In this document: positions 24,573-35,868 of the stretch, piece after piece
Layout of the letters: the number at the start of each line of letters is the position of its first letter
How positions within the stretch are numbered: the first letter of the stretch is position 1
Source of the DNA: Ruegeria atlantica
Lineage (GTDB): Bacteria > Pseudomonadota > Alphaproteobacteria > Rhodobacterales > Rhodobacteraceae
Reading direction: 5' to 3'
Length of the DNA: 64,000 nucleotides
Assembly (NCBI RefSeq): GCF_013033965.1
Contig: NZ_WQFE01000001.1
Span: 186,001-250,000, forward strand
The notes under the pieces: model-generated
Databases searched by the model: none
What the model was told of the DNA's origin: nothing
What the model saw: only the letters and a program-made list of their open reading frames with translations
Position numbers and translations under genes: made by a program

Positions 24573-24897
24573 TAACCCGGCAACGGCATGTTGGCCAATA
24601 TGTGCATCGCCTGCACTGAACCCGAGACGTAAAAGAATTAGAGAACTTCGCTCAAAAAACGTGCAACCCTAAAAAAGCAGAATTTCAGGTTGAAACCTTC
24701 CCCAAGGGAAGCAACAACGGAAAGCCTTATTTTATTGACCTTTCCCATCTTGCGTCGACAACCAATTGATATCTATGCACTTGCTGCATAGCAGCATTGA
24801 CGTCGCCAGGTATTGTGCAATCGCAGCATTTGCCTATTTTCAATCTCAAGCAAGCGCCGAGCAACACCGGCAACAACGAATATATCGAGTTAAGCAA

Positions 24898-25122
24898 ATG
24901 GCTGTAGCAGCACACAACACCACGCTCAAAGGCGCACCGGCAACCGGCCTGGCTTCGCTGTTCGAAGCGGCAAAAACACGGTTCACGCAATATCGCGTCT
25001 ATCGCCAGACAGTTAATGAACTGTCTGATCTGTCGAACCGGGAACTGGCTGATCTGGGGCTTCACCGCTCAATGATCCGTCGTATGGCCCAGCAAGCGGC
25101 CGAAGAATACGTCGCACGTTAA
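24898..25122 (+). CDS. DUF1127 small protein (CcaF1-like)
   Basis: A 74-residue basic protein starting MAVAAHNTTLKGAPATGL and ending with the DUF1127 motif: YRQTVNELSDLSNRELADLG and LHRSMIRRMAQQAAEEYVAR. The frame is open to 24766, but the family length (about 70-75) favours ATG 24898. It is followed within 25 bases by six CCTCCTCCC hairpins. From memory this is the arrangement of RSP_6037 (ccaF1) and CcsR1-4 in Rhodobacter sphaeroides, where the small protein and the sRNAs are co-transcribed under RpoH-type sigma factors in stress, and the protein influences RNA processing. Similar function here is inferred from synteny and domain. Confidence 0.85.
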   Translation: MAVAAHNTTLKGAPATGLASLFEAAKTRFTQYRVYRQTVNELSDLSNRELADLGLHRSMIRRMAQQAAEEYVAR

Positions 25123-25143
25123 GCGACACAGAAACACCGAGAT

Positions 25144-25172
25144 CAGGTCCTTCCTCCTCCCTTTTGGACCTG
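25144..25172 (+). ncRNA. CcsR-type hairpin 1
   Basis: A 7-bp stem (CAGGTCC, 25144-25150, with GGACCTG, 25166-25172) presents CCTCCTCCC (25153-25161) in its loop. It is the first of six such elements after the DUF1127 gene. Confidence 0.78.
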
Positions 25173-25180
25173 TATTTCAG

Positions 25181-25213
25181 CGGCGACATCTCTCCTCCTC
25201 CCTGATGTCGCCG
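25181..25213 (+). ncRNA. CcsR-type hairpin 2
   Basis: A perfect 10-bp stem (CGGCGACATC, 25181-25190, with GATGTCGCCG, 25204-25213) exposes CCTCCTCCC at 25194-25202. Confidence 0.82.
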
Positions 25214-25247
25214 CCCTTTATACCGGCCCTGAACGCCGGAACCTGAC

Positions 25248-25279
25248 ACACCGGGTATTCCTCCTCCCTTTCCCGGTGT
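25248..25279 (+). ncRNA. CcsR-type hairpin 3
   Basis: An 8-bp stem (ACACCGGG, 25248-25255, with CCCGGTGT, 25272-25279) exposes CCTCCTCCC at 25260-25268. A small hairpin CCGGC/GCCGG (25223-25239) lies between elements 2 and 3. Confidence 0.82.
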
Positions 25280-25287
25280 TGAAAGCG

Positions 25288-25324
25288 CGCGGCGACGTCT
25301 CTCCTCCTCCCTGACGTCGCCGCG
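25288..25324 (+). ncRNA. CcsR-type hairpin 4
   Basis: A perfect 12-bp stem (25288-25299 with 25313-25324) exposes CCTCCTCCC at 25303-25311. The stem differs from that of element 2 at compensated positions (GACATC versus GACGTC), which supports selection for pairing. Confidence 0.82.
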
Positions 25325-25359
25325 TCTTCCTCATACCGGGATCAAACCCGGGTTCGGAT

Positions 25360-25392
25360 ACATCGGGGCTCTCCTCCTCCCTGCCCTGATGT
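25360..25392 (+). ncRNA. CcsR-type hairpin 5
   Basis: A 10-bp stem with one G-U pair (ACATCGGGGC, 25360-25369, with GCCCTGATGT, 25383-25392) exposes CCTCCTCCC at 25373-25381. A small hairpin CCGGG/CCCGG lies just upstream (about 25336-25351). Confidence 0.8.
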
Positions 25393-25399
25393 TGAAAAG

Positions 25400-25448
25400 A
25401 ACGGCGGTTCCCTCTCCTCCTCCCTGGGAACCGCCGTTTTTGTTTTTT
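25400..25448 (+). ncRNA. CcsR-type hairpin 6, also the terminator of the array
   Basis: A perfect 13-bp stem (25400-25412 with 25426-25438) exposes CCTCCTCCC at 25416-25424 and runs straight into TTTTGTTTTTT. It therefore serves both as the last sRNA element and as the intrinsic terminator of the DUF1127-CcsR transcript. Confidence 0.85.
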
Positions 25449-25496
25449 GCGCCTGTATGTAGAATGGAAGCTCGAACGAGTTGTGAGGAGTTTCCA

Positions 25497-25787
25497 ATGG
25501 CCGCCTATTTCATCGCGCAGATTTCCATTCACGACCCCGAGGGATATCAGGCGTACCTAGAGGGCTTCATGCCGATCTTTGACCGCCACGGCGGTCGTTT
25601 ACTGACAGTTTCATCCAAACCCGTCGACGTGATCGAAGGCATTTGGGCCGAAAATGGAATCGTCCTGTTGGAGTTTCCCTCTCTTGAGGCAGCAAAGGCT
25701 TGGAAGGACGATCCGGATTATATCAAACTGGCCGAAATCCGGCAGCGGACTGCGACGACGAATATGGTTCTGGTCGAAGGACTTTAG
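25497..25787 (+). CDS. DUF1330 family protein
   Basis: A 96-residue protein of the dimeric alpha-beta barrel fold, MAAYFIAQISIHDPEGYQAYL, with the DUF1330 core GGRLLTVSSKPVDVIEG and LLEFPSLEAAKAWKDDPDY. Such proteins are related to ABM-type domains; their substrates are mostly unknown. I chose ATG 25497 because GAGGAG stands six bases upstream; the longer frame to 25389 would run through the sRNA terminator. It overlaps the end of the convergent helicase gene by four bases. Confidence 0.92.
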   Translation: MAAYFIAQISIHDPEGYQAYLEGFMPIFDRHGGRLLTVSSKPVDVIEGIWAENGIVLLEFPSLEAAKAWKDDPDYIKLAEIRQRTATTNMVLVEGL

Positions 25788-35684: not shown

Positions 35685-35759
35685 GCGGGCGTAGCTCAGG
35701 GGTAGAGCATAACCTTGCCAAGGTTAGGGTCGGGCGTTCGAATCGCCTCGCCCGCTCCA
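35685..35759 (+). tRNA. tRNA-Gly (GCC), copy 1
   Basis: A 75-base cloverleaf with acceptor arms GCGGGCG (35685-35691) and CGCCCGC (35749-35755), D arm TAGCTCAGGGGTAGAGCA, anticodon loop TTGCCAA and T loop TTCGAAT. The CCA end is encoded. The anticodon GCC reads glycine codons GGC and GGU. Confidence 0.97.
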
Positions 35760-35793: not shown

Positions 35794-35868
35794 GCGGGCG
35801 TAGCTCAGGGGTAGAGCATAACCTTGCCAAGGTTAGGGTCGGGCGTTCGAATCGCCTCGCCCGCTCCA
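35794..35868 (+). tRNA. tRNA-Gly (GCC), copy 2
   Basis: Base-for-base identical to the copy at 35685-35759, including the encoded CCA. The two genes are 34 bases apart and the flanks are different, so the duplication is confined to the gene itself. They are probably co-transcribed. Confidence 0.97.

Follow-up and report, generated by a model that had tools for sequence, protein, structure and literature searches.

In Rhodobacter sphaeroides, the ccaF1 gene and four CcsR RNAs are described as sharing one transcript, which starts at an RpoHI/HII promoter and is cleaved by RNase E (PMC10253847). RNase E processing, stress induction and Hfq dependence are reported for the CcsR RNAs (PMC8625941, PMC7866481, PMC8307010). 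The R. sphaeroides RNA RS0680a features two stem-loops with the conserved motif (PMC3927594), and the Rfam model CcsR1 (RF02791, 'Conserved CCUCCUCCC motif stress-induced RNA 1'), which spans 83 positions, also consists of two hairpins; four CcsR RNAs would therefore amount to eight hairpins. Rhizobial cuckoo RNAs of the ar14/NfeR1 type (RF02344) differ in that they contain three CCUCCUCCC anti-Shine-Dalgarno hairpins per RNA and have their own promoter (PMC10746234). The rhizobial RNAs SmelA075 and SmelA099 are composed of three and four hairpins, respectively, which share this loop and vary more in their stems (PMC3927594).

We analysed a stretch of 64,000 nucleotides from Ruegeria atlantica, hereafter called the window, in which a DUF1127 gene is followed by an array of hairpins. 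With high confidence, this locus is the ccaF1-CcsR operon (cuckoo, CIN1-type), a known arrangement, in its Ruegeria form, and the cluster adds a marine genus to a known type of regulator. As in the R. sphaeroides CcsR1-4/ccaF1 locus (RSP_6037), the DUF1127 gene comes first and is followed by tandem two-hairpin RNAs with CCUCCUCCC loops. A similar two-box promoter precedes both the Ruegeria locus and that of an R. sphaeroides-like genome (G051); the DUF1127 proteins of the two are identical at 35 of 69 aligned residues. The Ruegeria units share the CCUCCUCCC anti-Shine-Dalgarno loops with ar14/NfeR1, but, unlike the Ruegeria locus, the NfeR1 locus is presented in the available text of its report (PMC10746234) with no mention of DUF1127. 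The combination of multiple hairpins, one loop and more variable stems is shared with SmelA075 and SmelA099, which have more hairpins per RNA and belong to Rhizobiales.

The DUF1127 gene, the counterpart of ccaF1, maps to 24898-25122 on the + strand and encodes 74 residues (PF06568, E 1.2e-15). Downstream, CCTCCTCCC occurs six times on the same strand, at 25153, 25194, 25260, 25303, 25373 and 25416, with no further copies in the window. Shuffled versions of the window contained a mean of 0.47 copies, and none of them reached six. When the segment 25111-25450 is folded, all six motifs lie in hairpin loops, with mean unpaired probabilities of 0.97-1.0. The z-scores of the hairpins, in array order, are -3.9, -6.7, -2.6, -7.1, -4.9 and -6.5; the weakest hairpin (25260) was equalled by 3 of 200 shuffled sequences, the other five by none. 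A chance origin of the array was rejected on the basis of the shuffle counts and the hairpin z-scores.

The motifs are spaced by 41, 66, 43, 70 and 43 nt, i.e., by 41-43 nt inside pairs and by 66-70 nt between pairs, and in each of the three pairs a weaker hairpin is followed by a stronger one. Unit 1 is composed of hairpins A (25144-25172) and B (25180-25214), unit 2 of hairpins A (25248-25279) and B (25287-25325), and unit 3 of hairpins A (25360-25392) and B, the latter extending with its T-run over 25397-25449; all are on the + strand. Small hairpins without the motif separate the units. The first, between units 1 and 2 (CCGGC-loop-GCCGG, 25223-25239, + strand), is paired in all cells of 40 aligned genus arrays, and the five pairs of the second, between units 2 and 3 (CCGGG-loop-CCCGG, 25336-25351, + strand), are invariant in the same 40 arrays. 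The clear unit boundaries could be used in the design of probes.

The last hairpin apparently doubles as an intrinsic terminator. A sequence-only reading of this DNA had made the same claim, which is supported by eye in that the 16-pair stem at 25397-25441 is followed by TTTTTGTTTTTTG, and is not supported by a consensus terminator scan of the window, in which the hairpin is absent because the scan permits loops of 3-8 bases only. The same reading had correctly placed the six motifs in hairpin loops behind a DUF1127 gene and had rightly noted that the stems differ while pairing is kept in all six hairpins, but it treated them as six single hairpins and overlooked their arrangement into three units. 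A DUF1330 gene (PF07045, E 7.4e-28) lies directly 3' of the terminator, at 25497-25787, and is followed by a uvrD-like ORF on the opposite strand. The array of G051 (L026) likewise has uvrD-like sequence downstream, beyond another gene; both uvrD-like sequences were recognised by eye.

The CcsR1 model matches the array three times, at 25139-25219 (49.3 bits, E 7.6e-11), 25255-25328 (43.3 bits, E 4.4e-9) and 25356-25442 (33.4 bits, E 3.7e-6). The three matches are in register with the three motif pairs, and all are below the gathering score of 65.3. Both the spacing and this register led us to reject six single hairpins in favour of three pairs. The ar14 model yields two matches, of 53.1 and 46.9 bits, which are under its gathering score of 58.8; given these scores and the spacing of two-hairpin units, the locus was not assigned to the three-hairpin ar14/NfeR1 type. 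At gathering thresholds, Rfam models detect no array match and only two tRNAs in the 64-kb window; two identical tRNA genes map to 35685-35756 and 35794-35865, with starts 109 nt apart. Three features of cuckoo/CcsR loci were found at this locus, namely at least two adjacent hairpins with CCUCCUCCC in the loop, stems that vary while pairing and loop are kept (40 arrays), and a ccaF1-like DUF1127 gene directly upstream, as in the CIN1 locus. The membership in the CcsR/cuckoo group that had been suggested from the letters of the window is supported by a CcsR1 match on each pair; in the covariance-model search proposed along with it, these matches are in register with the units but score below the curated cut-off.

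Classed by motif position, the 54 genus arrays comprise 40 three-unit, 11 four-unit and three unclassed arrays. An alignment was built from the 40 three-unit arrays, that of the window included, and the other 14 were left out. The base found in the window is kept in 98.7% of the cells in motif columns, compared with 91.5% in stems, 81.4% in linkers and 72.9% at other loop bases. In the six hairpins, 99.5% of 2375 stem cells pair, and this value falls to 30-53% when the stem partners are slid. Covariation is evident, as 17 of 60 pairs have changed on both sides (109 cells); neither count was reached in 500 shuffles, which ignore the relatedness of the arrays and do not yield a probability. The number of further pair types was reached by 3 of 500 shuffles. 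The last stem adds little covariation because it hardly varies, 9 of its 13 pairs being invariant. Both the loop motif and stem pairing are under selection, in agreement with what had been proposed from the window.

The association of the array with the DUF1127 gene extends across the genus and beyond. In all 54 genus loci, including that of the window, two or more motifs come after a DUF1127 ORF. The motif-pair pattern was detected in 53 of the 54 genus genomes (own included); in the remaining genome (G150), the DUF1127 ORF is followed by two motifs that are wider apart. A list of 80 named proteins related to the DUF1127 protein of the window, which may omit the record of the window itself, is headed by that of Ruegeria sp. 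Alg231-54 (89% identity); proteins of R. atlantica strains are 86-88% identical, and at least two motifs are found behind the gene in 79 of the 80 loci. Of 30 other family loci with a motif pair, 24 have a DUF1127 match inside the 3-kb locus. The distance from the end of this match to the first motif is 6-77 nt in 23 of them; in L014, the match is found elsewhere. No DUF1127 ORF was found in the 3-kb loci of the other six (L011, L015, L017, L028, L029 and L030). The R. atlantica genome contains nine DUF1127 matches, and exact CCTCCTCCC pairs occur behind the copy of the window only. For viral contigs, no case of a gene for a protein related to the DUF1127 protein was confirmed.

In the family sample, at least one motif pair is present in 107 of 149 genomes, the R. 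atlantica genome included, and no exact motif pair was found in the other 42. Cuckoo-like RNAs are few in the wider class sample, where the pair pattern was detected in 15 of 289 genomes, four of which are Rhodobacteraceae; RF02344 matches 15 of the 289 genomes, never above the cut-off. Six motifs make an ordinary array. In the loci of the 80 named relatives, in which motifs were counted up to about 1.3 kb from where the DUF1127 match begins, six is the commonest number (28/80), eight motifs are found in 10 loci, and the two largest arrays have 14. The array of G051 contains 14 motifs and seven CcsR1 matches, five units being near-identical and the first unit scoring 106.2 bits. We therefore rejected the view, held in the sequence-only reading, that the three units of Ruegeria are an expanded version. 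PufX of G051 is identical at 67 of 67 residues to PDB 2ita_A, which we take to be an R. sphaeroides entry. Based on this identity, on the 106.2-bit CcsR1 score and on its DUF1127 protein of 71 residues, the length given for CcaF1 (PMC10253847), we regard G051 as R. sphaeroides or a very closely related organism. The seven CcsR1 matches of G051 exceed the four CcsR RNAs named in the literature, a discrepancy that may reflect collapsed repeats or strain differences.

Two boxes and a candidate core promoter precede the operon on the + strand. Box 1, ATGCACTTGCTGCATAGCAGCATTG, at 24775-24799, includes a TGCA-N6-GCAT sequence at 24776-24789 and CTGCATAGCAG at 24784-24794. Box 2, ATTGTGCAATCGCAGCAT, at 24812-24829, features a second TGCA-N6-GCAT sequence at 24816-24829, and its TTG (24813-24815) is in a -35-like position. 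Together with a -10-like CTATTTT at 24834-24840, this TTG may constitute an RpoH-type core: the TTG at 24813 and the TAT at 24835, both highly conserved in the genus, fit the TTG/TAT consensus of RpoHI/HII promoters (PMC10673084), the type assigned to ccaF1-CcsR in R. sphaeroides (PMC10253847). A sigma-70 consensus scan revealed no + strand promoter in the region upstream of the operon. We infer that transcription starts 6-8 nt after CTATTTT, which would set the TGCA-N6-GCAT of box 1 near -72 to -57. It resembles the TGCA-N6-GCAT box of the rhizobial NfeR1 promoter, which is bound by LsrB and located at -72 to -60 (PMC10746234).

The consensus of the element is ATGCA-N4-CTGCAT[A/G]GCAGCATTG for box 1 and ATTGTGCANNYGCAGCAT for box 2. 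With a loose core pattern, the two-box element was found in all 54 genus promoters (own included) and in 23 of 24 other family promoters, the exception being L014. Both boxes are also present in 78 of the 80 named loci when up to four mismatches are allowed in box 1 and up to two in box 2, with pattern starts 36-37 nt apart. As some loci belong to both the named and the genus set, the two counts are not independent. The failing loci are L252 (three mismatches in box 2) and L284 (six mismatches in box 1). The box 2 pattern TTGTGCANNYGCAGCA has one exact copy in the whole R. atlantica genome; eight more copies carry one mismatch, compared with five for the reversed pattern, which is near background. 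The two-box element was not found within 500 nt upstream of 12 non-family loci, only some of which hold the motif. The boxes are kept in other genera even though the protein encoded behind them is often just 45-60% identical, so that the binder could be fished out directly.

These data led us to a broader proposal, which we regard as quite possible and still somewhat doubtful. Cuckoo genes of Rhodobacterales would share a near-invariant promoter (ATGCA-N4-CTGCATRGCAGCATTG, followed about 37 nt on by ATTGTGCANNYGCAGCAT) read by one conserved regulator, either PhaR or a LysR-type protein, and by an RpoH-type sigma factor, and plasmids, many of them mobilizable, would have captured a single unit without DUF1127 under similar control. 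We found no published account of the promoter element or of the plasmid copies; Reinkensmeier and Giegerich 2015, Billenkamp 2015 and Grutzner 2021 may contain parts of it.

The element may be bound by PhaR or by a LysR-type protein. PhaR is attractive because box 1 contains CTGCNNNGCAG, the PhaR site given for R. sphaeroides (PMC12542648). In 23 of 25 family loci, that of the window among them, the best upstream match to this site deviates at one position at most; in L010 and L018, the best match is another site, and box 1 has one mismatch. The core of box 1 is not unique in the R. atlantica genome, since the longer pattern TGCTGCNNNGCAGCA occurs at 40 places with up to one mismatch, compared with 7 for the reversed pattern; two copies are exact, one of which is box 1. 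Two TGCTGCNNNGCAGCA-type sites, 30 nt apart and with one mismatch each, are found at the R. atlantica phasin gene (PF09361, E 8.5e-6). In the family (L127, L186-L205), paired T[GT]CTGC-R-N-Y-GCAG[CA]A sites, 26-30 nt apart and presumably PhaR sites, are located upstream of phasin genes in 18 of 20 further loci, a set that was hand-picked mainly by profile range and replaced the 30 loci with the best E-values, in only three of which an exact site was found.

The third centre base differs between the phasin sites and chromosomal box 1. Of the 40 phasin-site matches (four of which are unpaired), 38 have a pyrimidine at this position. Chromosomal box 1 instead carries a purine there in 22 of 23 family loci, as read by eye, and A in 98% of the 54 genus loci, which disfavours PhaR at box 1. 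In the plasmid copies described below, the centre is a pyrimidine in 11 of 12, i.e., in those with a recognisable box 1, and this keeps PhaR among the possible binders. The case for a protein of the LysR/LsrB type lies in the fit of both boxes to TGCA-N6-GCAT; LsrB itself is described as unique to Rhizobiales (PMC11975290). If PhaR were the regulator, the cuckoo RNAs would be linked to carbon storage. A LysR-type regulator, if confirmed, would work in the way that LsrB controls NfeR1, the cuckoo RNA of rhizobia.

A second locus with a single motif pair was identified in five genus members (G183, G188, G189, G190 and G197). Two such loci, L101 and L102, were inspected, and in both of them sequences resembling box 1 and box 2 precede the pair. 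In L101, box 2 starts about 50 nt before the first motif, leaving no room for a DUF1127 ORF. Used as a query, L101 matches 26 plasmid records (E <=1e-3), 17 over at least 80% and nine over less than half of its length. Seven matches, from Sulfitobacter, Pseudosulfitobacter, Ruegeria and Mameliella, are 100% identical over 181 bp. One of the plasmid units lies at 68429-68609 of pTHAF33_c. Fifteen of the 26 plasmids are typed as mobilizable and 11 are not. The PLSDB table, which leaves out RNA genes, gives no feature at the position of any of these matches. A 102-kb plasmid of D. shibae (PMC9426580) was considered as a possible link; this is unsupported, and none of the 26 matches is from Dinoroseobacter.

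Twelve copies (11 plasmid stretches and L102) were inspected, and each contains two motifs (8-base core). Eleven form two hairpins whose loops hold the motif; one of these, L317, has only four pairs in its first stem. In L322, the first motif folds otherwise. An ATTGTGC box (box 2) is clear in 10 copies, degenerate in L320 and missing from L322. No DUF1127 gene is listed in the 11 plasmid stretches (L311-L320 and L322) in the PLSDB gene table, which is incomplete. In L311, L312, L313 and L319, which are from MOBP plasmids, the copy lies immediately ahead of a strawberry-notch-like gene. Conversely, a plasmid of Rhodobacteraceae bacterium SC52 (L321, 2001-2330) carries the promoter element and DUF1127, with no CCTCCTCCC in the 4 kb inspected.

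These copies bear on whether the hairpins act in cis only, as a 3' UTR that would stabilise or meter the DUF1127 mRNA with no function in trans. Such a role would agree with the position of the array, which lies just behind the DUF1127 ORF throughout the genus loci and is closed by a terminator-like hairpin, but we consider it highly improbable given the DUF1127-less two-hairpin copies on plasmids, the family locus L017, where box 2 lies about 120 nt before the first motif with no DUF1127 match, and the conservation of the motif in the loop above that of the stems. The plasmid units would provide a simple two-hairpin system for testing anti-Shine-Dalgarno action without an adjacent DUF1127 gene, and would offer plasmids a route to altering host translation. 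If the proposed capture is true, the plasmids would have gained a handle on the translation of host mRNAs that is wired to the host.

The cluster probably silences genes by blocking access to ribosome start sites. A stress-type promoter would direct the synthesis of a single transcript encoding the DUF1127 RNA-binding protein and the three tandem two-hairpin RNAs, with transcription ending at the last hairpin. On the model of R. sphaeroides, RNase E would cut between the units with the participation of the DUF1127 protein, and three sRNAs of roughly 70-90 nt each would be released. The CCUCCUCCC loop includes the anti-Shine-Dalgarno core, and the two loops of each sRNA would base-pair with selected mRNAs at their purine-rich Shine-Dalgarno regions, thereby blocking translation. 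Repetition of the unit would raise the dose of one binding surface, and the main task of the stems would be to display the loops and keep them stable. From the relatives we infer that the Ruegeria RNAs are expressed, processed and bound by Hfq, and that they repress targets; masking of translation starts is plausible, being in line with published work on relatives, and we regard the exact mode of action, through anti-Shine-Dalgarno loops, as likely.

Many identical loops would also suit titration of a protein. The C-rich loops might mainly bind the DUF1127 protein, Hfq or another protein, with the copy number setting the degree of titration; CcaF1 is described as binding RNA and as influencing the levels of CcsR in trans (PMC10253847). 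As copies without DUF1127 exist and anti-Shine-Dalgarno pairing is the published mode in relatives, a protein sponge seems improbable. We also considered that the RNAs could mimic the 3' end of 16S rRNA and titrate many mRNA starts under stress, with no defined set of targets. A loop with the anti-Shine-Dalgarno core that is near invariant while stems drift, and arrays that multiply this one loop up to 14 times, would be expected of such a decoy, which we nonetheless hold to be unlikely, since defined targets are reported for CcsR (flhR; PMC8307010) and for NfeR1 (ntrBC; PMC10746234). We thus retain repression of selected mRNAs as the preferred reading. The available text of an R. pomeroyi sRNA survey (PMC4809877) contains no RSs0680, CCUCC or mraZ, and that of PMC5107571 no CcsR, CCUCC, DUF1127 or ar14.

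The full 9-base complement of the loop, GGGAGGAGG, occurs at ten genomic sites outside the array, two of which are closely followed by the start codon of a long ORF. With so few full complements at starts, regulation through Shine-Dalgarno regions would need shorter pairing, and purine-rich start sites alone would yield some placements of this kind. The two sites mark candidate targets, both named from their translations. GGGAGGAGG precedes the ATG of a small ORF resembling a TRAP permease by 10 nt in L220, and the GTG of a LysR-like ORF by 7 nt in L219.
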